A DNA stretch of 43,025 nt from Balneolaceae bacterium (GTDB lineage Bacteria > Bacteroidota > Rhodothermia > Balneolales > Balneolaceae): assembly GCA_020832225.1 (NCBI GenBank), contig JAFIFA010000044.1, positions 1-43,025 on the forward strand, written 5' to 3'. The position numbers were made by a program, and so were the translations under genes. Under the pieces are notes generated by a model that did not search any database, was not told where the DNA came from, and was given only the letters and a program-made list of their open reading frames with translations. Below, one piece after another: positions 12,170 to 28,621 of the stretch (position 1 is its first letter; every line of letters begins with the position of its first letter).

Positions 12170-12173
12170 CCCC

Positions 12174-12629
12174 TCAAATCTCCTCAAAAATCTTATAATA
12201 AGTCTCCGACATCCCCAGGCTGGTGTAAGTTTTCTGGGCGACGCGGTTCTCTTTCTCCACATAGAGTCGGAATCCGCAGACATCGGGTTTCTCTTCCGCC
12301 ATCTCTTTGATGGCCCGATACATCTTTCGGTAAACGCCCTTTCTCCGAAACTCCTTTACCACGTAGACGCTCTGAATCCACCAGATCAAACCGTTTCGCC
12401 AATCGCTCCACTCGAAAGTGATCATCAGGGTGGCGATTACTTCCTCACCTGATTCTGCAACGATATAGAAGCCATACTCAGGTTTTGAAAAGAGAGATTT
12501 CACGCCCGGTTCAATCTCTTCGCGTTTCAGCCTCTTCCCTTCCGTCTCCATCGCCATCGCGATGTTGAAATCAGCAATCTTGGATGCATCATCCGGAATG
12601 GCTTTTCGAACCTTGATCGGCTTATCCAT
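12174..12629 (-). CDS. GNAT family N-acetyltransferase
   Basis: A 151-residue acetyltransferase of the GNAT fold, which transfers an acetyl group from acetyl-CoA to an amine. The acetyl-CoA loop is visible as VVKEFRRKGVYRKMYRAIKE (about 90-109), preceded by the WWIQSVYV strand and followed by GFRLYVEKENRVAQKTYTSLGM, a typical C-terminal half. The substrate is unknown. It lies 16 bases after the UppP-like gene on the same strand, so the two are probably cotranscribed. The downstream side is the MITE-like element. Confidence 0.85.
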   Translation of the reverse strand: MDKPIKVRKAIPDDASKIADFNIAMAMETEGKRLKREEIEPGVKSLFSKPEYGFYIVAESGEEVIATLMITFEWSDWRNGLIWWIQSVYVVKEFRRKGVYRKMYRAIKEMAEEKPDVCGFRLYVEKENRVAQKTYTSLGMSETYYKIFEEI

Positions 12630-12645
12630 ATATCAATATGTTTAG

Positions 12646-13509
12646 TTACAGAATGCCCTGCAGCGATGCCACCGCGACAACAATGGCCAGCAGCCAGAGA
12701 TAGTAGGAGAATACCCGGAAGTTGGCGCGATAGAGAAGGTGGATCACAACTTTGAGGGCAAAGATCCCCACCACAGCTGAGACAACAAAACCGGTAAATA
12801 TTGCACCCCACCCGAGGGTGATGGTGCCTCCATAGCCAAACACCTCAATCGCCTGAAGAAGGGTTGCACCCAAAATGGTTGGGAAGGCGATAAAGAAGCT
12901 GTATTCAGCCGCCCAGCGTCGCTGCATCCCTGCAAAGAGGGCAAATGCGATCGTCATACCGCTGCGGCTCAATCCGGGCATGAGGGCAAGCGCCTGACCA
13001 ACACCAATAATAATGGCGATCCAAATGCCGATCTGCCGAAGTCCGACTTTTCGGGGCGGCAGGATATCGGTCCACCAAAGAATAATTCCCGTGATGGTGA
13101 GTGTACCGCTCATAATCAGCGGATTTGCGAACACCCCTTCAAACATCGCCTTGAGCGGAAACCCGATAGCTCCGGTAACAAATACGGAGAGCAGGCCGTA
13201 AAAAGTGAGCCGGCGGTAGAGGTCACCTTTAGGGGTTTTCTCTCCCGTTTTCCACTCCCAGAAGCCGAGAATGGTATTGCGGATGTAGGCTGTAAGGCTG
13301 TCTTTAAAGACATATGCGATGGAGATCAGAGTCCCGACATGCACAACGAGATCGAAGAGAATCATCTCCGGTGAATCGGGGTCAGGAATTACAATTCCCT
13401 GACTGATCAGAAAGTGCTGCATCAGTGCAAGGTGGCTTGTTGAGCTCACCGGAAAAAACATAAAGATTCCCTGGATAATACCCAGCAGAATCGCAACCCA
13501 TATCGCCAT
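12646..13509 (-). CDS. uppP: Divergent undecaprenyl-diphosphate phosphatase (UppP/BacA) homologue
   Basis: A 287-residue polytopic membrane protein of the UppP (BacA) family, which recycles the undecaprenyl carrier for peptidoglycan and related polymers. PVSSTSH (Ser23 and His26, equivalent to Ser27 and His30 of Escherichia coli) and the second motif PGLSRSGMT are intact. In the first motif the usual (E/Q)xxxE reads Q13-G-I-F-M17, so the second acidic residue (Glu21 in E. coli) is Met. That residue matters for activity in E. coli, so this protein may be a divergent subfamily with altered chemistry or substrate. The gene probably forms an operon with the GNAT gene. Confidence 0.85.
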   Translation of the reverse strand: MAIWVAILLGIIQGIFMFFPVSSTSHLALMQHFLISQGIVIPDPDSPEMILFDLVVHVGTLISIAYVFKDSLTAYIRNTILGFWEWKTGEKTPKGDLYRRLTFYGLLSVFVTGAIGFPLKAMFEGVFANPLIMSGTLTITGIILWWTDILPPRKVGLRQIGIWIAIIIGVGQALALMPGLSRSGMTIAFALFAGMQRRWAAEYSFFIAFPTILGATLLQAIEVFGYGGTITLGWGAIFTGFVVSAVVGIFALKVVIHLLYRANFRVFSYYLWLLAIVVAVASLQGIL

Positions 13510-13612
13510 GAAGCTAATCTCTTAATTCAACAGCACTTTATGCTGTCTTTGTCAATTTGAAGCCTCAATGATAAGGAATAAATCACTCACTCCATGAAGT
13601 TGAGTATAAATT

Positions 13613-13978
13613 CTACTCAGTCGGCTCCAAATCCTCAAGCTGCTCCTCAGTAAACATCTTCGATTTAATCATAAATCGTACTCCAAGCGGAATCTCAATC
13701 GAGAAACTGGAACCACGTCCCGGTTTTACATCCAGAGTGAGCTGCATATGCTTCCAATACTCAAACTGGTCTTTGGCCATATAGAAAGGTGCCCCGTAAA
13801 CTTCACCCAGTTTTACATCGCTCTTCCCCACACGAAACTGCCCTGCTTTGTAACACATGGGCGATGAACCGTCACAACAACCTCCGCTTTGGTGAAACAT
13901 TAACTCACCATGCTTTTCACGCAGCTCATCCATTACTTTTTTAGCGTCGTCGGTAATTAAGACTCTTTTAACAGACAT
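13613..13978 (-). CDS. DUF779-family protein
   Basis: A 121-residue soluble protein of the DUF779 family, recognised by HQSGGCCDGSSPMCY (Cys34, Cys35, Cys42) and the central GEVYGAPFYMAKDQFEYWKH region followed by an IEIPLGVRFMIKSKMF strand. DUF779 genes typically sit beside aldehyde dehydrogenases of the ExaC/AldB type, as here. The function of the family is not established; the Cys cluster suggests metal or redox chemistry. It lies downstream of adh on the same strand after a 78-base gap that contains a hairpin, so it may be expressed at a different level. Confidence 0.88.
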   Translation of the reverse strand: MSVKRVLITDDAKKVMDELREKHGELMFHQSGGCCDGSSPMCYKAGQFRVGKSDVKLGEVYGAPFYMAKDQFEYWKHMQLTLDVKPGRGSSFSIEIPLGVRFMIKSKMFTEEQLEDLEPTE

Positions 13979-14014
13979 GAGATCACAAATTTATTCGTCA
14001 TTTCGTATGAAACA

Positions 14015-14038
14015 TGGCCCGATACGGTGATCGGGCCA
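14015..14038 (-). terminator. Hairpin between adh and the DUF779 gene
   Basis: TGGCCCGAT-N6-ATCGGGCCA forms a perfect 9-bp stem with a 6-base loop. Transcripts reading leftward through adh meet TGTTTC after it, a weak U-tract. It may act as a partial terminator or processing site between adh and the downstream DUF779 gene. Confidence 0.6.
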
Positions 14039-14056
14039 CATTTTTCATTCATCTTC

Positions 14057-15085
14057 CTATGCTATTTCAAGAACCATTCGTCCCTCAATTTTATTGGCTC
14101 TCATTTCATCAATCACACCATTGATATCATTGATTTTTGCAGAGTGAATATTTGACTTCACTTTTCCTTCTGTGGCAAAATCAATCGACTCCTGCAGATC
14201 CTTGCGCGTTCCAACTATCGATCCGCGAATTGTGATTCTGTTCAGTACAGCGTTGAAAATATCCAGTTCAAAGCTGCCGGGTGGCAAACCATTCATGGCG
14301 AGTGTACCTTTGCGCCTAAGCGTTGAGAGTGCTTGCTGAAACGCCTGAGGAGCCACGGCAGTCACCAGGGCTCCATGCATTCCGCCGGTCTCTTTTTTCA
14401 AATATTCTCCGGGATCTTCTTCCATTGCGTTTACGGTCAGGTCGGCTCCAAGTCGCTTTGCAAGGTTCAGTTTGTCGTCTGCAATATCGATTGCTGCAAC
14501 ATGCATCCCCATCGCTTTAGCATATTGAACGGCCAGATGCCCTAACCCACCAATTCCTGAAATAGCAACCCATTCACCTGGTTTAGTTTCAGTCTCTTTC
14601 AACCCCTTATATACGGTAACACCAGCACATAAGATCGGTGCCATCTCCATGAAGTTTACATTGGATGGAAGGTGGCCAACATATCTGGGGTCGGCTAGTA
14701 CATACTCTGCATAACCTCCGTCTACACTATAACCGGCATTCTCCTGATCTTCACAGAGAGTCTCCCAGCCTGTTATGCAGTGATCGCATGTTCCGCAGGC
14801 AGAATAGAGCCACGGGACCCCAACGGCATCTCCCTCTTTTACGTTTTTAACGTTTTTGCCCTTTGCCGCCACATACCCAACACCTTCGTGACCGGGAATA
14901 AGGGGTAGTTTCGGTTTTACCGGCCAGTCTCCGTCAATAGCGTGAAGGTCTGTATGGCAGACACCGCTCGCTTTCACCTTGACCAGAATTTCATTTTCAC
15001 CCGGCTCTTTCACGGGCATCTCCTCAATTTGCAGCGGTTTGCCAAACTCTCTTGCAACAGCTGCTTTCATCGTTTTTGGTAACAT
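14057..15085 (-). CDS. adhP: Zinc-dependent alcohol dehydrogenase (AdhP-like)
   Basis: A 342-residue medium-chain dehydrogenase of the AdhP type, converting primary alcohols such as ethanol to aldehydes with NAD. The catalytic zinc ligands Cys43 (GVCHTD), His66-Glu67 (GHEGVG) and Cys153, the structural zinc Cys97, Cys100, Cys103 and Cys111 (CGTCDHC..), and the dinucleotide-binding GIGGLG (177-182) are all visible. The start at 15085 has GAGGTG about 6 bases upstream; a frame starting 14 codons earlier is less likely. It forms a block with the aldehyde dehydrogenase upstream and DUF779 downstream, separated by hairpins. The product of this step is the substrate of the aldehyde dehydrogenase. 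Confidence 0.92.
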
Positions 15086-15110
15086 AGTCACACCTCGATT
15101 TTTGTATTTA

Positions 15111-15141
15111 AAAGAATCCCCGGCCAAACTGCACCGGGGAT
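15111..15141 (-). terminator. Rho-independent terminator after the aldehyde dehydrogenase
   Basis: On the minus strand ATCCCCGG-N10-CCGGGGAT forms an 8-bp stem followed by TCTTTT, between the stop of the aldehyde dehydrogenase gene and adh. It would separate the two genes into partly independent transcripts. Confidence 0.7.
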
Positions 15142-15155
15142 GGATTTGGGGCTCT

Positions 15156-16658
15156 TTAGAAGAATCCTAATGCTTTCTTATCGTATGAGATCAGCATGTT
15201 CTTCGTCTGCTGGTAGTGATCCAGCATCATCTTATGATTCTCACGACCAAATCCGGACTTCTTATAGCCTCCGAAGGCTGCATGCGCCGGATAGGCGTGA
15301 TAACAGTTCACCCATACGCGCCCTGCTTTAATCGCACGCGGAACCTGATAGAGTTGATGGGCATCTCGTGTCCATACACCGGCTCCAAGGCCATAGAGCG
15401 TGTCATTGGAGATTGAAATCGCTTCATCCACATCCTTGAATGTGGTTAATGATGAAACGGGGCCAAAAATCTCCTCCTGAAATACCCGCATCTTGTTGTT
15501 ACCTGTAAAAATGGTTGGCTGTACATAATATCCGCCAGAGATACCGTTTGCTCCCATATCGGCGCGATCACCGCCAACCAGAACCTTGGCTCCCTCTTCA
15601 CGTCCAACCTCAAAATAGTTCAGAATCTTCTCAAACTGATCGCTGGAGGCCTGTGCGCCAACCATCGTCTCCGTATCGAGGGGGTGTCCCATTTTGATCT
15701 TCTTCACACGTTCAACCACCTTTTCGGTGAACTCCTCGGCAATAGACTCCTGTACCAGGATTCTTGAAGGACAGGTGCAGACTTCACCCTGATTCAGGGC
15801 AAACATTGCGGCACCTTCCAGCACTTTGTCGAAGTACTCATCATCGGCATCCATTACGCTTTCAAAGAAGACATTCGGACTCTTGCCGCCCAGTTCCAGC
15901 GTAACCGGAATAATATTCTCGGATGCGTACTGCATGATCAATCGTCCGGTAGTAGTCTCTCCGGTGAATGCCAGCTTACCGATTCGTTCGGAGGTTGCCA
16001 GTGCCTGACCCGCTTCTGGGCCAAAACCGTTTACAACATTGAGTACACCCGGTGGCAGCACATCGGCAATCAGTTCCATCATCACCATAATACTCGTTGG
16101 CGTCTGTTCGGCAGGTTTTACTATGGTGCAGTTTCCGGCAGCCAGTGCAGGGGCAATTTTCCATGTTGCCATCAGCAGCGGGAAATTCCATGGTATGATC
16201 TGTCCCACTACACCGATTGGCTCCGGCAGGTTGATGCTGACGGTATGGGCATCATGTTCAGATATACCTCCCTCCTGCGTACGTATTGCCGCTGCGAAAT
16301 AGCGATAGTGATCAACGGCCAGCGGAAGATCGGCATTCAGGGTTTCGCGGATTGGCTTACCATTTTCGATCGTCTCCACCCTGGCCAGATACTCCAGATT
16401 CTCCTCCATGATGTCGGCAATCTTCAGAAGCATCGAACTGCGCTCAGCAGCTGAAGAGCTGTTCCATGATGGTGCTGCTTTGTGGGCTGCATCAAGCGCT
16501 TTGTTGATATCAGCCTCACCTGATCTTGCTACTTTGGTGAATGGTTTACCATCAACGGGTGAAATGTTGTCGAAATACTCTCCGTCAACCGGCGGTACAA
16601 ATTTGCCGCCGATAAAGTTGTCATATTTACTTTTGAATTCAGGGCGTTCATGTAACAT
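15156..16658 (-). CDS. NAD-dependent aldehyde dehydrogenase (ExaC/AldB type)
   Basis: A 500-residue aldehyde dehydrogenase that oxidises aldehydes to carboxylic acids with NAD(P). The catalytic Glu255 ([11 protein letters not shown]) and nucleophile Cys294 ([11 protein letters not shown]) are present, with [21 protein letters not shown] and [11 protein letters not shown] for cofactor binding. GEVCTCPSR and the C-terminal YDKKALGFF match the ExaC/AldB acetaldehyde dehydrogenase group. An AAGGAG ribosome site lies 9 bases before the start. It is divergent from the araC gene, and DUF779 and adhP follow downstream. Together these suggest growth on, or detoxification of, ethanol or similar short alcohols. 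Confidence 0.94.
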
Positions 16659-16683
16659 TTGAGACTCCTTCTTTTAATGTTGA

Positions 16684-16698
16684 ATTGATACAATCAAT
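16684..16698. promoter_or_regulatory. Dyad in the aldehyde dehydrogenase-araC divergent promoter region
   Basis: ATTGAT-ACA-ATCAAT is a perfect 6-bp dyad with a 3-base centre, 26 bases upstream of the aldehyde dehydrogenase start and 143 bases before the araC start. A regulator binding here could control both genes. AraC-type proteins more often bind direct repeats, so the dyad may belong to another factor or be chance. Confidence 0.35.
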
Positions 16699-16841
16699 CT
16701 GTTATTAAAAGCGCTTCCAATCTCGTCTTCTATTCTCAAAAAATTGCTCTATCCTATCAATTTTGAAATAGTGACGCCGTTAACTATAATGAATAGCGGA
16801 CTGTAGCTTTCCCGCTTTTGCCAAAAACTTCATTAAAAGCC

Positions 16842-17747
16842 ATGCAGACAGCATTAGCAGGCCACCAGCCCAAACCGGAAAAATTAGTTGAAAACCGAAC
16901 CAGCTATGCTGGAAAAGAGGCCGTTTTTTCGGTTTATGATACCTACCAGGAGGCACGCCGTGTTGAACTTCATGCATCCAGTCCGATGTACTGCGGAATG
17001 ATATCCGGCAAAAAGGTGATCCACTCCGGTAATGAAGAGGCGTTTGATTTCGTACCAAGCGAATCCCTGGTACTCCCACCCGACAAGACGATTCACATCG
17101 ATTTTCCCGATGCAAAAATGGATGAACCCACAAAGTGCATCACCGTTGAGCTACCCCTCTCCAGAATCAACGACATTGTGGATCGCATGAATGAGATAAT
17201 GCCGCGAAGCCGCTACTCTGGTGAATGGGAGTATGATTCGGTTACGTCGGTTCATTTCAAGAATACCGGCTCTGTGGATCTTCTTATTCGCAAGCTCTTT
17301 CAGGTATTCACCGAAGAGCATATGCAGCGAGACCTTCTTGTAGATATGAACACTTCAGAGCTTATCGTGCATATGCTTCAGACCGAATCGAGAGAGCTAC
17401 TGCTTAAGAACTATCGCGATCACGTAACCCGCCACGGCATCGCTGCTGCTGTCGACTATATCCACAAAAATCTGCACCGATCCATTACTGTAAATCAGCT
17501 ATCTGAGGTTTCCTGTATGAGTCAGGCCTCATTCTATCGCTACTTCAAAAACGAGTTTGGGATGAGCCCTATTGAGTATATCAACAGGGAACGGATCAAG
17601 AAAGCGTGTTCACTTCTGAAAAAGAGACGGATGAATGTAACCGATGTCTGCTATGAACTGGGATTCTCCAGTATCAGCCACTTCATTAAGCTATTCCGGG
17701 AGCAGACCGGGCAGACTCCAAAACAGTTCCAGCTGTCGAAAGGGTGA
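16842..17747 (+). CDS. AraC-family transcriptional regulator
   Basis: A 301-residue regulator. The C-terminal half is a full AraC-type double helix-turn-helix: AAAVDYIHKNLHRSITVNQL then SCMSQASFYRYFKNEFGMSP, and a second unit NVTDVCYELGFSSISHFIKL ending FREQTGQTPKQFQ. The N-terminal half is a cupin-like sensing domain. The ATG at 16842 is chosen over a TTG eight codons upstream. It is divergent from the aldehyde dehydrogenase operon and is the obvious candidate activator of those genes in response to an alcohol or aldehyde. The link is contextual. Confidence 0.85.
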   Translation: MQTALAGHQPKPEKLVENRTSYAGKEAVFSVYDTYQEARRVELHASSPMYCGMISGKKVIHSGNEEAFDFVPSESLVLPPDKTIHIDFPDAKMDEPTKCITVELPLSRINDIVDRMNEIMPRSRYSGEWEYDSVTSVHFKNTGSVDLLIRKLFQVFTEEHMQRDLLVDMNTSELIVHMLQTESRELLLKNYRDHVTRHGIAAAVDYIHKNLHRSITVNQLSEVSCMSQASFYRYFKNEFGMSPIEYINRERIKKACSLLKKRRMNVTDVCYELGFSSISHFIKLFREQTGQTPKQFQLSKG

Positions 17748-17754
17748 GGATGGT

Positions 17755-18318
17755 TTAACAACAAAAGGCGCAAAGGGGGGATTGTGTGAAACCTAGCCCT
17801 GATTTGAGCTTCTCATCGGGTTACGGGTTACGAGTTTTCGTGTTGCGGGTTGTTTAACCGCAAAGGACGCTTAGAAGGTGAGGTGAGGAAAACATCTTAA
17901 CTATTACCCCAATCCCCAGCCCTGAAAGGGCGCTACAACTCAGCCCGGAGCAACGTTCCGGGTCTATAAAGGCGAAGCCAAATCCGCGCCGAGGAGTGAT
18001 TTTTGAAAAAGAACGGGGTTTATCGAGGCGGAGTGGGAAGGTGTTTGAGAAAGAACATTCCTTTAAAGACACTTTTCTTGAATGAAATAAAGTGCCCCTA
18101 AAAACCCCCCCTGTGTCCCCTCCCGACGGTTCGGGACAGGCTCTTGAGAAGGGGGGAATTCTACCAAGAATCAAAAACTTACCTGCTTCGGGCTTCTTGT
18201 CCTCCGAAGCTTTAGCGAAGGTGGATCAGCTTCCAACTTCTGGCTATCAAACAGTTCAACGATTCAACAGTTCTACACCCTTTGAGCTTTCAGCTTCCCG
18301 CTTTGAGCTCCAAAGAGC
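17755..18318 (+). repeat. Composite intergenic repeat island, copy 2
   Basis: This gap of about 570 bases between araC (+) and the tonB-like gene (-) has no credible gene. It contains, in order, GGGTTACGGGTTACGAG (17816-17850), AACCGCAAAGGACGC (17859-17885), the GCCCTGAAAGGGCGC block (17912-17965, with the CCCGGAGCAACGTTCCGGG hairpin), the GCGCCGAGGAG..CGAGGCGGAGTGGGAAGG block (17982-18038), CCCCTCCCGACGGTTCGGGA (18096-18165) and the CAACGATTCAACAG/TTTGAGCTTTCAGC tail (18186-18315). The order equals that of copies 1 and 4. The tail ends at the stop of the minus-strand gene. Confidence 0.7.
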
Positions 18319-19152
18319 CTAATCCAGTACAAACCTAAACGTAATGGTTCCCACTTGATTTTCCTGAGGGACTCCGGATGGCAGGGGCGAAAACCTCCAG
18401 TTCCGTAGAGTGTTCATCACTTCACGCTCGAGCTCAGGGTTCATCCTGATAATCGGTCTTATCCCTACAATATTACCTCGCGGATCTACCTCAATTCGGA
18501 CTCTGATCGTGGCCTCTTGATTGGTAAGATTACGAGGTTCAGGCTGTGCCAATGGATCTCGATTAAGATCGCCTTCCCACTGCAGATCGTATGGAGCGGA
18601 GTGATCCGGATCGTTGCCGGTTCCCTGGTCAACATCAACCTCACCGCGGGTTCCGCGTTCGTCACCGCTTTCTGCAACTCCTTCCTGAATCTGCTCATCC
18701 TCAATTGTCTGTGGAGGCACTTCCTCTTCCACAACATCTTCAATCGGTTCAAGCACTTCAGGATCGATTACATCTGTTTCCGGAGTCTCTACAACTTCAT
18801 CACTAACGATCTCTTCAATCTCATCGGGCAGATCTACCGGACGGGCAGTCTCCTCTTCGGGCTGTTGAGGCTCATCAACAGGCTGGGTTATCTCAGGATC
18901 GGGATCTTCGGGCTGGGTTTCGGCAGGGTTTGGTCGAGTTGCGACCTCTTCGCGCTGCACCTCTGCCTGTTCGGCAGCGGTTCCTGAACGAAACTCACCG
19001 AGAGTTACATCGATATAGGCTGGACGGTTATCGATATCAAAGCTGACCATATAGAAGAGCGCAATGAGCAAAATGATCAGATGCAGAATCCCCGTTACGC
19101 TCAGGCCGAATCGGTCTTCCTTGTTGATATTTTTCTTAAACCAGTCGAGCAT
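18319..19152 (-). CDS. tonB: TonB-family energy transducer
   Basis: A 277-residue TonB-like protein. It has a short cytoplasmic N-terminus, one membrane span (about 21-38), and an extended Pro/Glu/Asp-rich periplasmic region (60-190) with many PEE, PVDE and PEP elements. A C-terminal TonB-type domain follows (about 210-277: TIRVRIEVDPRGNIVGI, LRNWRFSP, TITFRFVLD). TonB couples the proton gradient, through ExbB/ExbD, to outer-membrane proteins. The linker is acidic rather than Pro-Lys rich, as expected for a salt-adapted proteome. It is the last gene of the six-gene operon starting at 23647 and lies 4 bases after exbD. Confidence 0.85.
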   Translation of the reverse strand: MLDWFKKNINKEDRFGLSVTGILHLIILLIALFYMVSFDIDNRPAYIDVTLGEFRSGTAAEQAEVQREEVATRPNPAETQPEDPDPEITQPVDEPQQPEEETARPVDLPDEIEEIVSDEVVETPETDVIDPEVLEPIEDVVEEEVPPQTIEDEQIQEGVAESGDERGTRGEVDVDQGTGNDPDHSAPYDLQWEGDLNRDPLAQPEPRNLTNQEATIRVRIEVDPRGNIVGIRPIIRMNPELEREVMNTLRNWRFSPLPSGVPQENQVGTITFRFVLD

Positions 19153-19156
19153 TAAG

Positions 19157-19561
19157 TTAGTTGCGCTCCGTAGCCATTACCATATTCATATTAAGGGACT
19201 GACCGATATTCATGACGCGTACAGCATCTTCGATCTTTGCATCTCGGTCTGCCCTCACTACTAACGTAGCATTAGGCGAATTCTGATATGCTTCTCTGAT
19301 TGAGGCAGGAAGATTGGCTCTTGCCACCTGTTCTCCGTTCACAAAAAAGTCACCTTCCGGGGTAATCGCGACCGATATCTGCTGCGCCTCTGTAGTCACA
19401 GACGACTCTGCCTGGGGTACATTCACGCGAATACCGAAATTGGTCACGAAAGAGGAAGTGAGCAGGAAAAAGATCAACAGAAGCAGGATAATATCCGTCA
19501 GTGACGATTGTGAAAACATCGTCAAGGGTTCCATTTTCTGTCTGTCTTTGCGAAAGTCCAT
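19157..19561 (-). CDS. exbD: ExbD/TolR-family protein
   Basis: A 134-residue ExbD/TolR protein, a proton-channel subunit that works with ExbB in the inner membrane. The single span (about 20-38, SLTDIILLLLIFFLLTSSFV) has the functionally essential Asp at position 23, followed by a periplasmic domain with VAITPEGDFFVNGEQV and ATLVVRADRDAKI. A strong AGGAGG site lies 8 bases before the ATG, inside the exbB end. It is 2 bases after exbB and 4 bases before tonB. The final NMVMATERN tail is typical of the family. Confidence 0.9.
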   Translation of the reverse strand: MDFRKDRQKMEPLTMFSQSSLTDIILLLLIFFLLTSSFVTNFGIRVNVPQAESSVTTEAQQISVAITPEGDFFVNGEQVARANLPASIREAYQNSPNATLVVRADRDAKIEDAVRVMNIGQSLNMNMVMATERN

Positions 19562-19563
19562 TC

Positions 19564-20283
19564 TCAGACCTCCTGTTTCTTCTTAGGTGATGGTGCCTGG
19601 AGCAGATCAACAAAATCGGCTGATGCGTTCTCCAGTTCAAAAATCATGCGGTTGATCTTCCCTGAAAGGAAGTTGTAAAAACCGTAGGCGATAATTCCAA
19701 CAATCAGTCCGGTAGCGGTGGTTATCAACGCTTCCCAGATACCGCCTGCAAGTACGCTTGGGTTTACATTACCCTGCAGCGCCTGGATATCCATAAATGC
19801 CCGAATCATACCGGTTACGGTACCGGTAAAACCGATCAGTGGTGCCACACCAGCGATGGTTGCAAGCCAGTCCATTCGTTTTTCCAGACGATAGATCTCT
19901 TTTTTTCCGGCGTTATGGATCGCTTCTTCAATATCGCGAATCGGTCTGCCGAGGCGACGAATACCCGCTTTTAGAATTCTTGCAAGTGGTTTATCAAACT
20001 CTTCGCAGTACTGAATGGCACGAGGCTGGCTTCCACTCTTCAGAAGCGACTCAATGTTGTTCAGCATACTGTTAACATCCATCTTGGAGTTCTCCAGTGT
20101 TCTCCACCGTTCTGCAATCACATAGATCGCCAAAATCGAGAGGAGAAAGAGCGGAATCATCAACAACCCACCCTGAGACAAAATTTCAAAAAATGACATT
20201 GAGGACTCTTCATGAAGCATTTCAGCAAGGGTATCTGACTCGGCAGCTTCGGCCTGAAGGAGTAATAGCGGGAAGATGTTCAT
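19564..20283 (-). CDS. exbB: ExbB/TolQ/MotA-family proton channel protein
   Basis: A 239-residue ExbB/TolQ homologue. It has an N-terminal hydrophobic start, a first span (about 36-56, QGGLLMIPLFLLSILAIYVI), a cytoplasmic helical region, and a pair of spans in the C-terminal half around APLIGFTGTVTGMIRAF and ALITTATGLIVGIIAYGFYNFL, with the conserved Gly/Thr pattern of the channel. With ExbD it forms the inner-membrane stator that powers TonB-type or Tol-type proteins. It starts 6 bases after the HU-SPOR gene and ends 2 bases before exbD. Confidence 0.92.
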   Translation of the reverse strand: MNIFPLLLLQAEAAESDTLAEMLHEESSMSFFEILSQGGLLMIPLFLLSILAIYVIAERWRTLENSKMDVNSMLNNIESLLKSGSQPRAIQYCEEFDKPLARILKAGIRRLGRPIRDIEEAIHNAGKKEIYRLEKRMDWLATIAGVAPLIGFTGTVTGMIRAFMDIQALQGNVNPSVLAGGIWEALITTATGLIVGIIAYGFYNFLSGKINRMIFELENASADFVDLLQAPSPKKKQEV

Positions 20284-20289
20284 TATGGT

Positions 20290-21720
20290 TTAATTGGTCT
20301 GGATTCTTTGGATAAAGTTATTGGTGTTATATGGTGATGGCAGATCGGTAGCCCCTGTCTGGGCATCAGCGATTGATTCAAACTGTCCTACGCTAACGCG
20401 CCATACTGTTTCGCCGTCAACAGTTCTGGAGTTCACGATTACGCGGTAGCCATCCTCAGAGAGGTTTGCAGCCTGGTCTCTTGCGCGCTCTTCCTGTCTC
20501 AATGAAAACAGCACAATTGAGAAGCCGTCATTAGCCTGATCAACGATTTCGCCGGTCAAACCGTATATGGGTTGATCAGAATCTTCAGCAGCTTCTATTT
20601 CATCAGCCATCTCTTCTGTTACTTCAGCATCGGCTTCAGGTTCCAGTGGAACAAGAACATCCTGTGCATCGGCTATATCCTCATCGACTGCCGGTTGCTG
20701 CGGAGCCGTTGCAGGAACCTGGTTCTGATCCGGATCTGGCCCATCCATCAGGCTTGGAATAATCACAAATGCGGAGCCAATCAGAACCAGTGCAAGTATC
20801 ACGCCAAGCACCATCATTATTGGATCCCGCTCTTTCTTCTTCGGTTTCGGTGCAGGGCGACGTGCAGATGCGGCCACAGGTTCTGGTTCCGGTGTTTTCT
20901 TCTCTGCCGACTCTTCGGGCAGCTCTACAGGTTCATCATCATCGAGATCATCCAGATCGTCGAGGCCTGCAAATATATCCTCATCAATTTCATCTTTGTC
21001 GTCTGAGCTCGTTGCAACCGGATCGGCTTCAACAAACTCCTCTTCAGGTTCAACTGCTTCTTCCTCCTCTTTGCTCTCCTCTTCCTCAGCCAGTTTTCTT
21101 TTGGCCTCTTCAGAGAGCAGACTCATTTCAAAGCCGGATGGTTCGCCTTTCTGCATCTTGGATGAAGCATCACCTAACAGTCCGGCAAAGGGGTCCTCTT
21201 CACGCTCTTTGGGTTCACCCTCCTCATACTCAAAATCGTACTCATCATCAGCAAGCTCCGGTCTGTCTGTGGCCTTTTTCTCTTCATCATCTTTATCACT
21301 CTTCTTCTGAGTGCCTCCAGCACCGATTCCAAAAACATCATCGGCGTCATCGTCACCTTGATCTTTGGCTTTTTCCTCATCTGCAGCAGTCTCTTCCTTT
21401 TTGGCTGAAGCCGCCTCAGTATCCTCCTCTTCATCCTCCTGCTTGTTTGCAGACTCTCGCGCCGGCTTCAGCTCCACAGGCTCCATACCGGCATATTTGA
21501 AGTTAACCTCCGTACTGAGCTCTTTGGCAGCATCAAAGCGAAGCTCTCCTCCCTCGTCAAAGTAGAACATCCCGAACTCTTTGATCTCAAGCGCTTTCCC
21601 CCGCTCGGCTGCATCCACAATTCGTTTAATTAGCTGCTGAAGCTGTTCTTCCACTTCAACCTTCTCCATCCCCGTCTTCTCAATCAGAAGCCCGATCAGC
21701 TTCTCTTTATCAATCTTCAT
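20290..21720 (-). CDS. HU-like domain-TM-SPOR membrane protein
   Basis: A 476-residue modular protein. Residues 1-85 form an HU/IHF-like domain of the CCDC81 type (KEKLIGLLIEKTGMEK, KALEIKEFGMFYF). A very acidic low-complexity linker follows (about 93-285), then a basic patch RRPAPKPKKKER (287-298), one membrane span (301-322), a Pro/acidic periplasmic linker and a C-terminal SPOR domain (398-472) that would bind glycan strands denuded of stem peptides at division septa. HU-like domains fused to TM and SPOR domains are described in Bacteroidota. An apparent GAGGAG site is about 6 bases before the ATG. It overlaps the mini-HU gene by 11 bases and precedes exbB by 6. This layout would link nucleoid or cytoplasm to the septal wall. 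Confidence 0.85.
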   Translation of the reverse strand: MKIDKEKLIGLLIEKTGMEKVEVEEQLQQLIKRIVDAAERGKALEIKEFGMFYFDEGGELRFDAAKELSTEVNFKYAGMEPVELKPARESANKQEDEEEDTEAASAKKEETAADEEKAKDQGDDDADDVFGIGAGGTQKKSDKDDEEKKATDRPELADDEYDFEYEEGEPKEREEDPFAGLLGDASSKMQKGEPSGFEMSLLSEEAKRKLAEEEESKEEEEAVEPEEEFVEADPVATSSDDKDEIDEDIFAGLDDLDDLDDDEPVELPEESAEKKTPEPEPVAASARRPAPKPKKKERDPIMMVLGVILALVLIGSAFVIIPSLMDGPDPDQNQVPATAPQQPAVDEDIADAQDVLVPLEPEADAEVTEEMADEIEAAEDSDQPIYGLTGEIVDQANDGFSIVLFSLRQEERARDQAANLSEDGYRVIVNSRTVDGETVWRVSVGQFESIADAQTGATDLPSPYNTNNFIQRIQTN

Positions 21721-21919
21721 TCGAGCTCCTCACTTTCGATTCGAATTCAACCACGTCTGCAGGGGGTACCATTACAACCCGTCCGCTTTTATACTTCTTC
21801 TGATGCTGCTTCTGGTGAACTACCTTAAACAGGCCAAGACCGTCAATCTCCACCTTGTTCTTGTCCAGTATCTGATCTCTCAATACTTCTTTGAAAGCCT
21901 TGATAAATTTAGATTTCAT
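21710..21919 (-). CDS. Short HU-like DNA-binding protein
   Basis: A 69-residue protein matching the HU/IHF fold from the second helix onward: FIKAFKEVLRDQILDKNKVEIDGLGLFKV, then a basic HQKQHQKKYKSGRVVMVPPADVVEFESKV. HU proteins are about 90 residues, so roughly the first helix is missing; an in-frame TAA (the stop of the barrel gene) one codon upstream rules out a longer start. Lys/His-rich residues in the arm region suggest nucleic-acid binding. No ribosome site is seen, and initiation likely depends on translation of the barrel gene ending 3 bases before. It overlaps the HU-SPOR gene by 11 bases. Confidence 0.75.
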   Translation of the reverse strand: MKSKFIKAFKEVLRDQILDKNKVEIDGLGLFKVVHQKQHQKKYKSGRVVMVPPADVVEFESKVRSSNED

Positions 21920-21922
21920 AGT

Positions 21923-23647
21923 TTAGAATAGGTATGTGATTCCAACGTAACCCTGGAAGCCGCGCTCAGGATAACCCCGCCACAACTCATACTCCTCATC
22001 CAGAATGTTCAGTATTTTGCCGTAAACACCCAGTCGCTCCGTCACAGAAATTTCAAACCGGCTTCCCATTACAATGTATGATGAGAGTGATTGCCCGAAA
22101 GAGTCCTCACGATTTCCGGCATATTCGGCCCAGCCTTCAACAACCAGCTGCCCTACCGGCCTGAAAGAGGCTGTTCCCTTAAGTGCAAATGTCTCCGTAA
22201 AGGGGATTTTATCATTTCCTGTCAACCTTGGCCGCTGCCAGTGTCCGTCAGCTTTGATCCAAAGCACATCGGGACGAAGATCCTGCGAGAAGCTACCATA
22301 GACCCTGAAGATGTTTGCATCGTTGAATGTGGGGGTGAAGTACTGTTCGGTAAGTCCGGTTCCCGCAATCTCATTGCTGTTCTGCGTGAAGTAGAGGTGA
22401 TTAAAAATATTCTGATAAGAGACGCCACCCGTTAGTCTCGAGCCACGGAAGGGTTCAAGTACAGCTTCCGCTTTCGCTTCCCATGTAAACTGATGCTCAA
22501 ATGGTGTAGTGAAGTCGATAAAGCGGTTCATATTGTGAACACGATTCAGCGAGTTGTGTGAGGGCGTACCACGAACCTGTCCCCTAAGTTCAATTCCCTG
22601 CAGGAGGGTGTGCGAAATCTGTACATCAGGAGCTACATGGAAAGTAAACCCATTAACTGCGTCGGTAACACCCGCCAGACCCATCGACGCTTTCACCTCT
22701 GTTTGATAGTTAAAAAGTCTTTCATAATGAGCCGACACCCTGGTTACCGACCATCCACCCATGCCGTTATCGAGAGTCTCTATACCGCCGGCTTCTGATG
22801 CTACGCGAACACGGTGTACCTCCTCAACATTACTTCCGAGGCGTGAATACTCTGCCCTTCCACGAAAACCCCACTCATTAACATCACCAACATAGTTATC
22901 GAGGTTGGATGTGAGGTCATAGCGATAGGCGTATCCGCTAACCCCAAAGTCTACACCGCTGATGGATGTTCGAGCTACGGTTAGGTCCGTTCCACCACGG
23001 AAACCGGCCTGCTCAACCCGTGTGTTCAGGTCCGTTGGGCCCTCATCATCGGTAACAAGTCCAGGATAGTGGTTAAAGTTCGATTTAAAACCAAAGTGGC
23101 TGCGAAGCTTGGTTCTCTTTGAAAAGGAGTTGAACAGATTGAAGTTCGCATCGAAATCCCTGTATGAGCTGGTAGCATCTTCAACGTGCCCGTCTGTGGA
23201 CAGATGGCGCACATTTCCGGAAACCCAGTTTCCGTCTCGAATTCTGGCAATTGCGTAGATATCAGCCTCGGGGGTGAAGTAGCTACCTACACCGACACGG
23301 GCAAAACCATTTCTCGGATTGGCATATCCAAGCGGCATGTAGACCGGTGCTTCCGGGCGATCTAGCTGACCCAGCGGCAAGTTCGCCATCACCGTCTCCT
23401 CATCTTCAATGAAGGGCTGTCGATCGGGATCGATCTGAAAAACTCTCGGTCGCGGATTAAACCCCAAAATGGGCTGGCGACGTAGTCCCGGAAACCGTGC
23501 CTGAAACTGGCTTCTGATCTCTATATCCTGAGGATCAATTTCCGGCAGCAGTGTTTGATCGCTCGCACCGGCATCCTGAGCAGTGAGGGTTGCTGCAAAC
23601 AGGAGTGAAACAAAGCACAAAAAGAGTATCGTGGTGACTTTTTGCAT
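21923..23647 (-). CDS. Plugless TonB-receptor-like outer-membrane barrel
   Basis: A 574-residue outer-membrane protein with a signal peptide (ending LTAQ at about 24), an N-terminal region without a recognisable plug domain, and a long series of amphipathic strands. Aromatic-rich strand ends are visible, such as GVGSYFTPEADIYAIARI, SGYAYRYDLTSNLDNY, WAEYAGNREDSFGQSL and the last GFQGYVGITYLF, which ends in aromatic Phe as outer-membrane barrels do. It resembles the C-terminal barrel of TonB-dependent receptors. It opens the operon with HU, HU-SPOR and ExbB/ExbD/TonB, so it may be a dedicated outer-membrane partner of that TonB system. The cargo is unknown. Confidence 0.8.
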   Translation of the reverse strand: MQKVTTILFLCFVSLLFAATLTAQDAGASDQTLLPEIDPQDIEIRSQFQARFPGLRRQPILGFNPRPRVFQIDPDRQPFIEDEETVMANLPLGQLDRPEAPVYMPLGYANPRNGFARVGVGSYFTPEADIYAIARIRDGNWVSGNVRHLSTDGHVEDATSSYRDFDANFNLFNSFSKRTKLRSHFGFKSNFNHYPGLVTDDEGPTDLNTRVEQAGFRGGTDLTVARTSISGVDFGVSGYAYRYDLTSNLDNYVGDVNEWGFRGRAEYSRLGSNVEEVHRVRVASEAGGIETLDNGMGGWSVTRVSAHYERLFNYQTEVKASMGLAGVTDAVNGFTFHVAPDVQISHTLLQGIELRGQVRGTPSHNSLNRVHNMNRFIDFTTPFEHQFTWEAKAEAVLEPFRGSRLTGGVSYQNIFNHLYFTQNSNEIAGTGLTEQYFTPTFNDANIFRVYGSFSQDLRPDVLWIKADGHWQRPRLTGNDKIPFTETFALKGTASFRPVGQLVVEGWAEYAGNREDSFGQSLSSYIVMGSRFEISVTERLGVYGKILNILDEEYELWRGYPERGFQGYVGITYLF

Positions 23648-23756: not shown

Positions 23757-24764
23757 TTAACGGCTGTCGGCGCTGTTGAGTGTGTAATATTTATCCCACC
23801 AGAGCGCCAGCGGACCGAACAGAAAGACAGACAGAACCGTGGCTCCGTGAGCTACCGTTGCGTATGTAAGTGCCTTAACCAGTGGAACATCGTAGAGACC
23901 CCACATGCTCTGCTGAATAAGCAGATGGTAGGATCCAATACCTGCCGGCGTCGGTATACTTACACCAATCGATGAAACCATCGTGAGTACCACCGCATCT
24001 GCCATGGTTAACCCATACAGATCCTGCATGCTCATCATGAAAAACGGCAGGTAGGCCATCAGCACATAACCAAACCAGATACCCGCAGTGAGCAGAATGA
24101 ATCCACCCCAGTTCTGAACGTGGCGAATCGATAGAATCCCTTCACTGAACGAGCGCGCTTTTTCAACAATTTTCAGCAGCACCGGGCTCTCTATACCACT
24201 TCTGTTCTCCAATGCCGTAAGCATACGATAAACAAGCCAGGTGCCTCCAATTGCAAGGATGAAAAAGAGTGGCATCAACAGATAGACATACCAAGACCAA
24301 TCTTCCGTCCCAAACAGCTTCTGTACCGCCGCTACATCACTTACGAGCCAAATAAGGGCGAATAGTATCAGAAACATCATCGTGAGCAGATCGATCAACC
24401 GCTCGATTACGATGGTCCCAATTAGGTTACTCGAGCTCAGGTTATGCTGTTTTGCAACATAAACAGGCCTGGTAACCTCACCCAATCTTGGTACAAGATT
24501 ATTGAAGAAATATCCCATCATCACGCCTGCAAACAGCGTGGAGCGCCGCAGGTTCCCATTCTCTTTAGACAATAGAAGCCTCCATCGCTCCGCCCGCAGA
24601 TAATGACTGATGAGCAGCACCACCAGAAAAAATGGTAGCCACCAGTAGCTTACAGACCAGATCTCCCTCCACAATTCACCGAGTTCAACATTACGTATCG
24701 CAAACCAGATAAAGAGTCCGGCAACTATCAGCGAAACGACAATGTTCAGAACTCTTCGGTTCAT
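23757..24764 (-). CDS. YbhN/LPG synthase TM-domain (UPF0104) membrane protein
   Basis: A 335-residue polytopic inner-membrane protein with about eight spans. It shows family features: HYLRAERWRLLL near the N-terminus, GVMMGYFFNNLVPRLGEVTRPVYVAK, and the later VSSIGVSIPTPAGIGSYHLLIQ motif. It matches the lysylphosphatidylglycerol synthase transmembrane-domain family (YbhN, AglD), which includes putative lipid flippases. It overlaps the end of lolA by 4 bases (ATGA), so it is translationally coupled to lolA. A role in moving or sorting membrane lipids or lipoproteins is plausible from position but not shown. Confidence 0.85.
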   Translation of the reverse strand: MNRRVLNIVVSLIVAGLFIWFAIRNVELGELWREIWSVSYWWLPFFLVVLLISHYLRAERWRLLLSKENGNLRRSTLFAGVMMGYFFNNLVPRLGEVTRPVYVAKQHNLSSSNLIGTIVIERLIDLLTMMFLILFALIWLVSDVAAVQKLFGTEDWSWYVYLLMPLFFILAIGGTWLVYRMLTALENRSGIESPVLLKIVEKARSFSEGILSIRHVQNWGGFILLTAGIWFGYVLMAYLPFFMMSMQDLYGLTMADAVVLTMVSSIGVSIPTPAGIGSYHLLIQQSMWGLYDVPLVKALTYATVAHGATVLSVFLFGPLALWWDKYYTLNSADSR

Positions 24765-25423
24765 CGTGTTTCTTGACGAAGATCGATCTGTTCCGCGTTG
24801 CCCGGTACCTCAAGCTGAAAAATTTCTGCAGGATCACCGGTTATAAACTCTCCGGTTCCAAATCGGGTAATCAACTCATTCTCCACCTGATCCAGTGCCT
24901 CTATTCGAACGGGGTTTCCATCACTATCGGCATAGATAAATACTTCAATAAAGACAGAGAATGGATCGTCTGAGACAAGTCTAATCCGGGTCTCCCCATT
25001 TTCGCCGGGCTCCTCGCTCACTTCATAGCTATCGTCCACTCCCTGCAACATTCGCGAAGGTGCAAAATCATCCTCTTCTTCGATGTAATCGCTGATGATC
25101 ACACGGTTTTTCGATCCATCAAAAACGGTTGAGGTTCTCCCATCCACCATCATACGCTGGTTGTTCCCCTCAATTTTGTACATCTCCTTTCCGATCCAGA
25201 TGTTGCCCTCTGTGCGCTGCTGCTCTCCGGTAAAGGAGTCATTATACTCGTGGCTGAACTCCGCCGTGAAAATCTGCCCCTCTTCAAACAGCGACTTCAT
25301 CCGGTCAAAAACTGGCGTGCTGTTCTGAGCAACAATCTGCTGAACCGGCAGTGCACCAATGATCAAAACGACTGCTGTTGTGAGCAGCGATCTCTTAAAT
25401 ACCAAGTTCTTCAAAGATTTCAT
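24761..25423 (-). CDS. lolA: Outer-membrane lipoprotein carrier protein LolA
   Basis: A 220-residue LolA-family protein, a periplasmic carrier that shuttles lipoproteins from the inner to the outer membrane. A signal peptide (ending IVAQ) is followed by the open beta-barrel pattern: FDRMKSLFEEGQIFTAEFSH, EGNIWIGKEMYKIEGNNQRM, DGRTSTVFDGSKNRVIISDY, VFIEVFIYADSDGNPVRIEAL. The ATG at 25423 has GAGGAGG about 6 bases upstream, making it the start; an ATG at 25444 would be possible. It starts 29 bases inside ftsK and overlaps the next gene by 4 bases. The lolA-after-ftsK layout recurs in many bacteria. Confidence 0.88.
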   Translation of the reverse strand: MKSLKNLVFKRSLLTTAVVLIIGALPVQQIVAQNSTPVFDRMKSLFEEGQIFTAEFSHEYNDSFTGEQQRTEGNIWIGKEMYKIEGNNQRMMVDGRTSTVFDGSKNRVIISDYIEEEDDFAPSRMLQGVDDSYEVSEEPGENGETRIRLVSDDPFSVFIEVFIYADSDGNPVRIEALDQVENELITRFGTGEFITGDPAEIFQLEVPGNAEQIDLRQETR

Positions 25424-27881
25424 CGAGTTCCTCCTCATGTTCAATTTTCACGTCTCTGGCCGTACTTCCCTGGTAGGCTCCCACCACGCCGGCATTAAAG
25501 AGCTGGTCGATAATGCGTCCTGCGCGGTTATAGCCGATTTTCAGCTTTCGCTGAAGCAGCGATACCGACCCCTGCTGGTGAAGAACCACGATTTTAGCCG
25601 CATCCTTGAACAGATCGTCGATGTCATCAAGCGGGTCCGGAATGCCGGACTCTTCATCTTCAACGACCGGAAGCTCGAAAGGTTTCTTGAAGCCTCTCTG
25701 CTCGCCAATAAACGAGGTGATCCGCTCCACTTCATCTGTATCTACAAACGCATTTTGTATCCGCGTCATACCCGCACCATTTGTAAAAAGCATATCGCCT
25801 CTTCCCACCAGCTGGTCGGCACCACCGGTATCGAGAATGGTTCTCGAATCCACTTTAGATGCTACCTGGTAGGCAATACGCGCCGGGAAGTTAGCCTTGA
25901 TGGTACCCGTAATCACATTAACGGATGGCCTCTGTGTGGCCACTACCAGATGAATCCCGATTGCGCGTGCAAGCTGGGCCAGACGGGCAATCGGCTCCTC
26001 AATCTGTTTACCGGCCGTCATCATAAGATCAGCAAGCTCATCAATAATCACCACAATGTAGGGCAGGTGTCTGTGGCCGAGCTCATCATCAAGCTCTCCG
26101 GTTTTATATTTTTCGTTGTACGACTTGATATCCCGCACCATCGCCATCTTCAGCAGGTCGTAGCGCTCATCCATCTCCTTGGTTACGCTCTCAAGTGTTT
26201 CCAGGGCCCGTGAAGTATCGGTTACAATCGGTTCATCTGCGCCCGGCAACACGGCCAGGTAGTGGTTCTGAATATTTCGGTATAGAGAGAGCTCAATCTT
26301 TTTCGGATCGATCAAAACAAACTTGAGGTCATCCGGATGACACTTATAGAGCAGGCAGGTGATGATCGTATTGATACCCACCGATTTACCCGAACCTGTT
26401 GCACCTGCAATCAGCATGTGAGGCATCCGTGTGAGATCCACCATAAACACCTCGTTCTCGATCGTCTTACCAAAAGCCACCGGAAGCTCAAATTCGGTCT
26501 CCACGAACTTTTTGGTATTAATCACAGACTTGATATAGACCGTCTCACGGGTGCTGTTTGGCACTTCAATACCAACGGCAGAGCGGCCGGGAATCGGAGC
26601 AATGATCCGAAGACCATGGGCGGCCGTAGCCATCTTGAGGTCGTTCGCATAGCTCTCAATCTTGCTGATCTTTACATCGGGTGAAGGCTCCAGCTCATAA
26701 AGCGTAACGGTGGGACCCACAATCGCATTGATACTGAGAATTTCAATCTTGTGGCGCCTCAGCTTATCAAGAATGATTCGCTTATTGTTCTTGATCTCCT
26801 CTAAGTCCACCTCATTGCCTTCATTCGGTGGTGCATTCAGCAGGTCGATACCCGGGAATTTATACTTGATAACCGGAATCTCTTTCGCCTTGTCTTTATT
26901 GACGCGATCCAGCTCTTTGTCGCTGGCCTCTTCGTCCCCTTCACCAACAAATACTGAGATCTCTACATCGTCGTCATCACTCTCTGTTTCGTCGGGTTTC
27001 TCAAGAATTGCCCTTGGCGGACGACCTTCCAGTTCGGCACTTTCCTTCTGCTTCTCCTTAATTCGCTCCAGATCCTTCTCCTGTGAGCGTTCAACAATGT
27101 CGTCAATATCATTCTTGCCGGTTGCCGGCCCTGTATCAGCCGCTCTCTTTTCTTCTCTGCGTACCCTCTCAGCTTCTTTTTTCTCTTTTGCTTCCGCCTT
27201 TTGCTGTTTTCGGATGGCGGCTTTCTCCTCCTTCTTTCTTTGACGCTCCTCCCGGGTTTCATCAAGATTCTCCCTCACATTACCCATCCAGCCACGAAAG
27301 GTGTCGATCGTTTTCTGGAGGTCGCGATCCACGAGAACCAGCAGCGACACAAAAAGCAGAACAAACAGAATAATCACGGATCCAACACCAGTCACGTTTT
27401 GCATGATGGATGCTATTGATATCCCCGAACTTCCGCTCCAGGCCATCGAATAGGCTTCATATCGATTGTAGAACCAGCCGATGGTTGCCGAGAGCAGTAC
27501 CATCATCCAGATTCCATAAGCCAGTGGCCAGCCGAGTTCGCTGAGTTCATTCTGACGGAACACATACCAGCCGATTGAGGCGATCAGGATCGGGACAATG
27601 ATGCTGACATACCCGAACAGTTGGTGTACAAAGAGGTAGGAGATCCACGCACCGATAATTCCCAGCCAGTTGCTGATTCGAAGAGCGGGCCCCTGATCCA
27701 CCTGAAAAATGGAGCTGGAGGAGATCGATTTCAGCACCCCATAGTCGTTGGGATTGTAGGATGCAATACTCAGCAGAAGAAGAACTGCCACCGACATTAT
27801 GAGAATGCCGGCAACCTCCATCTTCCGGGTGTAATCGAATGAGCTGAGAAAGTTATTCGTTGTCTTCTTTTTTTTAGCCAT
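25395..27881 (-). CDS. ftsK: DNA translocase FtsK
   Basis: An 828-residue septal DNA translocase that pumps DNA and clears chromosome termini during division. The N-terminal part has four or five membrane spans (about 22-184), followed by a charged Lys/Arg/Glu linker (200-330). The motor domain has Walker A GATGSGKS (493-500) and Walker B VVIIDELADLM (610-620). The C-terminal winged-helix gamma domain (LLQRKLKIGYNRAGRIIDQL) is present, so it should recognise orienting DNA sequences. Met at 27881 is chosen because the upstream 37 codons have no membrane or family features. It overlaps comB by 8 bases at its start and lolA by 29 bases at its end. Confidence 0.95.
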   Translation of the reverse strand: MAKKKKTTNNFLSSFDYTRKMEVAGILIMSVAVLLLLSIASYNPNDYGVLKSISSSSIFQVDQGPALRISNWLGIIGAWISYLFVHQLFGYVSIIVPILIASIGWYVFRQNELSELGWPLAYGIWMMVLLSATIGWFYNRYEAYSMAWSGSSGISIASIMQNVTGVGSVIILFVLLFVSLLVLVDRDLQKTIDTFRGWMGNVRENLDETREERQRKKEEKAAIRKQQKAEAKEKKEAERVRREEKRAADTGPATGKNDIDDIVERSQEKDLERIKEKQKESAELEGRPPRAILEKPDETESDDDDVEISVFVGEGDEEASDKELDRVNKDKAKEIPVIKYKFPGIDLLNAPPNEGNEVDLEEIKNNKRIILDKLRRHKIEILSINAIVGPTVTLYELEPSPDVKISKIESYANDLKMATAAHGLRIIAPIPGRSAVGIEVPNSTRETVYIKSVINTKKFVETEFELPVAFGKTIENEVFMVDLTRMPHMLIAGATGSGKSVGINTIITCLLYKCHPDDLKFVLIDPKKIELSLYRNIQNHYLAVLPGADEPIVTDTSRALETLESVTKEMDERYDLLKMAMVRDIKSYNEKYKTGELDDELGHRHLPYIVVIIDELADLMMTAGKQIEEPIARLAQLARAIGIHLVVATQRPSVNVITGTIKANFPARIAYQVASKVDSRTILDTGGADQLVGRGDMLFTNGAGMTRIQNAFVDTDEVERITSFIGEQRGFKKPFELPVVEDEESGIPDPLDDIDDLFKDAAKIVVLHQQGSVSLLQRKLKIGYNRAGRIIDQLFNAGVVGAYQGSTARDVKIEHEEELDEIFEELGI

Positions 27882-28608
27882 GCTTAACTGAGATGATTCC
27901 GTCGTGCAATATGGGCAGATGATCGGTAATATCAACCTGGCTGCAGTAGTAAAGATCGTCGGTACCAACCAGGTTTTTGAGCCTGATTGCATGATTAGAC
28001 TGCCGAATTACTGTACCGATATCATCACCATACTTTTCATAAATACCGAAGGCAACCTTTGCGCCATCTCTGGCATTTTCAGGCAGTGTGCCACCACACG
28101 ATTTATGGATAATGGAGCCGGCCAACAGTGAATCTTCCATGGCCAGCCGTCCTTTCCAGCCTGCACAAACCAGAACCACATCCCTTTTTTCATTTCTGAG
28201 AGCCTCAACCACAGCGTTTTCATTGAGAAATGAAGCTATGTAGACGACTGCCGATCCAAGTGACTTCTTTATCGCCTTGGTACCGTTGGTGGTGTTAAAA
28301 ATAAGAGTTTTCCCGGAAACCTCTTCATTGGTGTACTCCAGCGGTGAGTTTCCGAGATTGTAACCTTCAATCTTCATACCATCCTTTTCACCGCAGAGGA
28401 GATAGTTATCGGAGTCCACATTCTGGGCAATTTTACTCGCTTCGCCCATATCTTCCACGGGTATAACACCGCGCGCGACATTCATCAGGGCGGTTACAAT
28501 CGTTGAAGTGGCCCGAAGAACATCAATAATAACTACGGCCTTGTCGCGCAACTCATCTTCTCTGAAGGAGTGCGCGGAAAAGAAAACATCCATTTCCTGC
28601 TGATTCAT
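27874..28608 (-). CDS. comB: 2-phosphosulfolactate phosphatase family protein (ComB)
   Basis: A 244-residue ComB-family enzyme, known for dephosphorylating 2-phosphosulfolactate in the coenzyme M pathway of methanogens. The VVIIDVLRATSTIVTAL motif contains the metal-binding Asp and Arg, GYNLGNSPLEYT and NTTNGTKAI are intact, and the C-terminal half contains VCAGWKGRLAMEDSLLAGSII. No coenzyme M or sulfolactate genes are nearby. The enzyme may act on sulfolactate in another pathway or have a different role in this group. It starts 13 bases after gcvT and overlaps the ftsK start by 8 bases. Confidence 0.85.
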   Translation of the reverse strand: MNQQEMDVFFSAHSFREDELRDKAVVIIDVLRATSTIVTALMNVARGVIPVEDMGEASKIAQNVDSDNYLLCGEKDGMKIEGYNLGNSPLEYTNEEVSGKTLIFNTTNGTKAIKKSLGSAVVYIASFLNENAVVEALRNEKRDVVLVCAGWKGRLAMEDSLLAGSIIHKSCGGTLPENARDGAKVAFGIYEKYGDDIGTVIRQSNHAIRLKNLVGTDDLYYCSQVDITDHLPILHDGIISVKHG

Positions 28609-28621
28609 AATGGGGGGAACT

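Follow-up and report, generated by a model that had tools for sequence, protein, structure and literature searches.

The described systems closest to the one treated here are Tol-Pal (TolQ-TolR-TolA-TolB-Pal with CpoB), the Ton system, the HU-CCDC81 SPOR proteins of Bacteroidota (PF18174/PF18175) and PorE. A recent paper reports that Bacteroidetes have no identifiable tol-pal loci and lack Pal. For this gap it proposes PorE of Bacteroidetes and Rhodothermota as a tether between outer membrane and wall, a single lipoprotein that combines CpoB-, TolB-, carboxypeptidase- and Pal-like domains and has no motor encoded with it (PMC12204202). The present analysis concerns a unit of six genes, all on the minus strand, at positions 18319-23647 of contig JAFIFA010000044.1 (assembly GCA_020832225.1; the whole stretch of 43,025 nucleotides is referred to as the window). 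The host is a salt-loving Balneolaceae bacterium whose nearest named relatives include Rhodohalobacter. In transcription order the genes encode a plugless TonB-receptor-type outer-membrane barrel, a short HU-like protein, an HU/transmembrane/SPOR protein, ExbB, ExbD and TonB. The original prediction read them as a candidate trans-envelope machine with its own ExbB, ExbD and TonB, and the results below support that reading. The accessible part of PMC12204202 does not describe the six-gene unit.

The unit resembles Tol-Pal in having a motor of the TolQ/TolR family, a TonB/TolA-like transducer, a tetratricopeptide repeat (TPR) protein rich in TPR_6 repeats and a wall-binding component. It differs in that TolB is missing, a plugless TonB-receptor barrel takes the place of a lipoprotein at the outer membrane, the wall would be contacted through an inner-membrane SPOR protein, and the TPR protein is giant. 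Because β-propellers cross-match the full-length TolB model, which in this genome gave propeller matches only, all below the cut-off, the TolB_N domain was used to score presence and absence. No TolB_N match was found in this genome. Of the 118 genomes sampled across the phylum, 112 lack the domain and only six have it, four of these belonging to one family. With no TolB, the unit is not counted as a member of Tol-Pal. It shares with the Ton system the motor family, the TonB C-terminal domain, the 22-strand receptor barrel and a TonB-box-like strand, but the barrel is without a plug, and the TonB is divergent, apparently dedicated, and linked to SPOR and the giant TPR protein. The HU-CCDC81 SPOR proteins have the same tandem HU-transmembrane-SPOR layout, which in this operon is divided between two overlapping genes. 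PorE likewise has TPR (CpoB-like) parts; judged by domain content, none of the operon or TPR genes is PorE.

The six genes were found exactly where they had been predicted, and their treatment as one operon is supported. The intervals in transcription order are 3 bases, an 11-base overlap, 6, 2 and 4 bases. A 109-base gap separates the barrel gene from the flippase gene (23757-24764); a search of this gap revealed no sigma-70 promoter site, a result of little weight in this phylum. The predicted domains all gave Pfam matches: SPOR (E 5e-10), the Bac_DNA_binding (HU) lobe in both HU genes (E 1e-7 and 5e-6), MotA_ExbB (E 9e-32), ExbD (E 1e-23) and TonB_C (E 2e-7). For the ExbB/TolQ-family channel subunit (19564-20283, minus strand) the best NCBIfam model is TolQ at 98 bits (cut-off 221), and the ExbD/TolR-family subunit (19157-19561, minus strand) matches TolR at 51 bits (cut-off 127), so both are assigned at the family level only. 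The TonB/TolA-like transducer (18319-19152, minus strand; 277 amino acids) consists of an N-terminal transmembrane helix with a motor-type histidine, His24, an acidic linker and the C-terminal domain (18328-18528, minus strand). It matches the NCBIfam TonB model at 36 bits, above the cut-off, and the TolA model at 18 bits, below it.

Comparison within the order was based on 20 regions from five families. The transmembrane aspartate of ExbD (Asp23 in this protein) and the channel residue Thr155 of ExbB are invariant, and the TonB histidine is found in 18 of 21 sequences. Two loci of family f22 (L148 and L153) have a TonB beside the motor that lacks the histidine usual at the motor contact. Seven TonB_C matches are present in the genome, of which the operon TonB scores 34 bits and four others 77-79 bits. 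Two Rhodothermia genomes in which no TonB lies beside ExbD have an orthologue elsewhere, scoring 182-193 bits with a model of the operon TonB. That the orthologue is kept even when it has left the motor genes, together with the divergence of the operon protein, indicates that the operon TonB, a divergent single orthologue, is a dedicated transducer. Elsewhere in the genome, contig C218 carries a second motor locus (positions 7598-9628 of L164), in which an ExbB-like gene is followed by two ExbD-like genes between rplI-like and ftsH-like genes, with no match to the TonB model. On contig C154 a MotA/ExbB-family protein is encoded together with FHA-, PP2C- and Ser/Thr kinase-like genes, and this locus may represent another motor-coupled signalling system.

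The barrel (21923-23647, minus strand) is a protein of 574 amino acids with a signal peptide. It had no match in the Pfam search of the window proteins, and hence none to a plug domain, while a weak NCBIfam match was obtained to the C-terminal strands of TonB-dependent receptors. An AlphaFold2 model based on 42 orthologues has 22 strands within residues 114-573, with a mean predicted local distance difference test (pLDDT) score of 83 and most strands above 90. Residues 19-107 are disordered in the model, and no folded domain precedes the first strand. The PDB matches are TonB-dependent receptors, the best by Foldseek being BtuB (1nqg, E 6e-18) and the best Z-score, 23.1, being to FhuA. A profile search showed that the C-terminal half is homologous to solved TonB-dependent receptors, with OprC at E 9e-9. 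The plugless receptor-type barrel proposed from the sequence is thus borne out by the modelled fold.

The disordered N-terminal segment (residues 33-101, LLPEIDPQDIEIRSQFQARFPGLRRQPILGF...; 23345-23551, minus strand; pLDDT <50) is the most conserved part of the barrel in the order-level alignment, 30 columns being almost invariant over some 70 residues. Within it lies the TonB-box-like strand QDIEIRS (residues 40-46; 23510-23530, minus strand). In the phylum-wide alignment the box-like strands of relatives read ETVTVTKA, EEIVVTTA, RTVTVTSA, PEFVITG and PEFIVTG, and the version of Rhodothermia and Balneolia is REVEIRG or QDIEIRG. A strict TonB-box core is present in 10 of 66 barrel N-termini, compared with a mean of 1.5 and a maximum of 6 in 500 shuffles, and 35 of 38 Rhodothermia have an equivalent of the EIRG type. 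The box-like strand of this barrel is a candidate binding site for the operon TonB.

The neighbourhood was surveyed across the phylum in 67 barrel loci from 36 sampled GTDB families, only loci with checked neighbours being counted. A TPR gene lies directly upstream of the barrel gene in 46 of the 67; among the 31 families outside Balneolia this holds for 30. The remaining one (L131) has a frame of 1164 codons in the place of the TPR gene, which overlaps an over-long barrel frame, so that the rule failed. Downstream of the barrel, HU was found in 51 loci, SPOR in 47, ExbB and ExbD in 45 and TonB in 37; the motor is kept jointly in 22 families and SPOR in 26, over several classes. The arrangement in distant classes is TPR-barrel-transmembrane-SPOR-TonB, with no HU detected there. 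The gene set is thus conserved, in subsets that vary by family, across almost the whole Bacteroidota phylum, and the adjacency extends beyond this lineage; confinement to it was the outcome that the original prediction had named as speaking against itself. A broader search gave barrel matches in 280 of 296 genomes, which overstates its presence because weak matches, such as those in family f27, are probably ordinary receptors.

Outside Balneolia the TPR gene has approximately 1000-1090 codons, and its product is secreted, periplasmic and dominated by TPR_6-type repeats. In Balneolia it has moved away from the barrel; this genome has a single copy on contig C30 (1483-4464), flanked by a CBS-domain-like gene and, one gene beyond, an aroA-like gene (both names read from the sequence). 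The protein is also single-copy in 11 other barrel-bearing genomes. In family f13 of the same class none of 15 sampled genomes has the barrel and none of the three tested has the TPR protein, which ties the two proteins together. The original prediction missed this partner of about 1000 residues as well as the fact that its two HU genes correspond to one split protein.

The short HU-like protein (21710-21919, minus strand; 69 amino acids) corresponds to the first lobe of a tandem HU (HU-CCDC81_bac_1). The protein of 476 amino acids that follows (20290-21720, minus strand) begins with the second lobe (residues 1-86; 21463-21720, minus strand), which has no DNA-binding arm, and continues with an acidic cytoplasmic linker, a transmembrane helix (residues 303-321; 20758-20814, minus strand), an acidic periplasmic linker and the SPOR domain (20338-20532, minus strand). 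Two loci of the same order, L050 and L052, have both parts fused in one protein; the split gene pair has the layout of the HU-CCDC81 SPOR type. The Pfam model HU-CCDC81_bac_1 matches exactly the short HU of a relative (G030), the window HU lobes themselves scoring below the CCDC81 cut-offs, and tandem HU proteins occur downstream of the barrel in several Bacteroidia families. By sequence comparison the two genes correspond to the tandem HU (CCDC81-like) protein of Bacteroidota in split form. No description of HU-SPOR, CCDC81-SPOR or TPR-TonB systems in Bacteroidota was found in the literature search, which mostly did not extend to subscription papers.

The fused HU module (L052, 11106-11540) forms a single pseudo-dimer fold. 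It aligns over its full length with microtubule inner proteins from sea urchin and Tetrahymena doublets (Z 8.6 and 9.1), chains that are probably CCDC81, and further matches are a subunit of the Mycoplasma mobile gliding machine (9io5, Z 8.0) and single-chain IHF (Z 6). The microtubule and gliding-machine matches suggest that HU pseudo-dimers have been reused as mechanical scaffolds. The charge of the second lobe is -5 in this protein and 0 to -14 across the order, that of the cytoplasmic linker is -50 (-93 to +3 across the order), and that of the arm of the short HU varies from -3 to +6. Since the second lobe and the linker are acidic and the closest folds are of the CCDC81 type, a protein scaffold is favoured over DNA binding. 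The HU genes of family f13 (L321-L324) are found beside SIS/ROK sugar-, Maf- and ParA-like genes, as read from the sequence.

Conservation is closer within Balneolia. The order GcvT-ComB-FtsK-LolA-flippase-barrel-short HU-HU/SPOR-ExbB-ExbD-TonB is found in all 20 order-level regions, the exceptions being contig ends, ComB not detected in L049, and no separate short HU in L048, L050 and L052. The same 11-gene order is seen in 80 named Balneolia loci wherever a contig end does not cut it, two of these being without a separate short HU; in L053 the genes lie hundreds of bases apart with the order unchanged. Locus comparison shows that the upstream unit GcvT-ComB-FtsK-LolA-flippase (23757-29719, minus strand) is a neighbour kept in Balneolia and not in most of the phylum. 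The adjacency to FtsK pointed out in the original prediction holds across Balneolia; among the other sampled families only one (L313) shares it. In L313 (genome G200, 10708-19458) the TPR-barrel-HU-SPOR series is preceded on its own strand by FtsK-LolA-flippase, the two being separated by a DUF92 gene and a gene for DNA polymerase III delta. This arrangement hints that the wider FtsK-LolA-flippase neighbourhood is old.

The favoured explanation is a dedicated force machine of the Ton/Tol type. The proton-driven ExbB-ExbD motor would power the operon's own TonB, and the C-terminal domain of TonB would pair with the box-like strand in the disordered N-terminus of the barrel. The plugless 22-strand barrel would form an outer-membrane complex with the giant periplasmic TPR protein encoded on contig C30. 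The split tandem-HU/transmembrane/SPOR protein would scaffold the motor at the inner membrane and tether it to denuded septal peptidoglycan. The task would be to link the energised inner membrane with wall and outer membrane while the cell constricts, as Tol-Pal does in other diderms. The architecture of the machine is well supported, while the role in division, the contacts of the barrel with TonB and with the TPR protein, the septal location and the function in constriction are predictions. That the motor acts on the barrel-TPR complex, is placed by SPOR at the septal wall and performs a Tol-Pal-like task is judged to be an even call. Somewhat below that stands the wider proposal of a Bacteroidota-wide motor-driven system that replaces Tol-Pal, comprising plugless barrel, giant TPR protein, dedicated TonB and SPOR scaffold, and derived from Ton by loss of the plug.

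Several observations weigh against this explanation. The TonB box is degenerate in Balneolia, with Arg for Thr, and reads DIEIR in this barrel, and a barrel without a plug could equally be an export channel. Family f13 keeps the short HU and HU-SPOR proteins away from any motor gene; HU-SPOR therefore seems to do partly independent work and not to be an obligate part of the machine. In some Bacteroidia the TPR-barrel pair stands alone (L296-L299, L315), and SPOR is missing in L150-L152. A coupling to FtsK has been given less weight because the neighbours differ outside Balneolia. Finally, the 2025 study proposes PorE as the tether that substitutes for Tol-Pal, and it expects further systems (PMC12204202).

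The strongest alternative is an energised exporter, in which the plugless barrel is a pore for lipoproteins or glycans, the giant TPR protein a periplasmic chaperone, and TonB the gate or drive, SPOR serving only for positioning. Outer-membrane exporters usually combine a TPR protein with a barrel, and Slam, BcsC, PelB and AlgK-AlgE can be compared. A 22-strand barrel without a plug is wide, the TPR protein matches the Slam TPR model at E 2e-12, although all TPR models cross-match, and LolA, the lipoprotein carrier, is encoded two genes before the barrel in Balneolia and also lies upstream in L313. However, the loci show no substrate or synthase genes, the barrel belongs to the TonB-receptor type and not to the exporter type of 14 or 16 strands, and it is SPOR and the motor that recur as neighbours, while LolA does not. 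An exporter is regarded as unlikely.

More doubtful is the possibility that TPR-barrel, HU-SPOR and ExbB-ExbD-TonB are three independent housekeeping modules that share an operon. The modules do come apart in families f13, f25, f28, f30, f33 and f35, but their joint retention over several classes, the spacing of 2-6 bases in this operon and the TonB-box-like motif in the barrel of the same operon speak for a common function. A DNA-sensing septal machine, with HU on nucleoid DNA near FtsK as the original prediction had proposed, is very improbable. The HU folds, the FtsK operon directly upstream in Balneolia and the ParA- and Maf-like genes near HU-SPOR in f13 would fit such a role, but it was set aside on the charge and fold of the HU module, in which the lobe of the SPOR protein is acidic and armless and the CCDC81-type matches exceed that to IHF, and on the limited extent of the FtsK adjacency. 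Least probable of all, and scarcely credible, is ordinary TonB-dependent nutrient uptake with the barrel as receptor and the operon as a general Ton system: receptor fold and homology and the accompanying ExbB, ExbD and TonB agree with this second outcome that the original prediction had named against itself, but it is weakened by the divergent TonB and its orthologue kept elsewhere, and was rejected as the main interpretation since the barrel has no plug to gate a substrate, the genome contains a second motor locus, ExbB-ExbD-ExbD, along with six further TonB_C matches, of which four are much stronger, and the barrel stands in the 36 sampled families beside the same envelope genes and not beside transport genes.

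The proposed dedicated force machine bears on the question of how Bacteroidota without a recognisable Tol-Pal couple constriction of the outer membrane to the energised inner membrane. For this the unit, which has a motor of its own, is a concrete candidate spread over nearly the whole phylum, and it would represent a second, independent route by which a TonB receptor has become a mechanical device.

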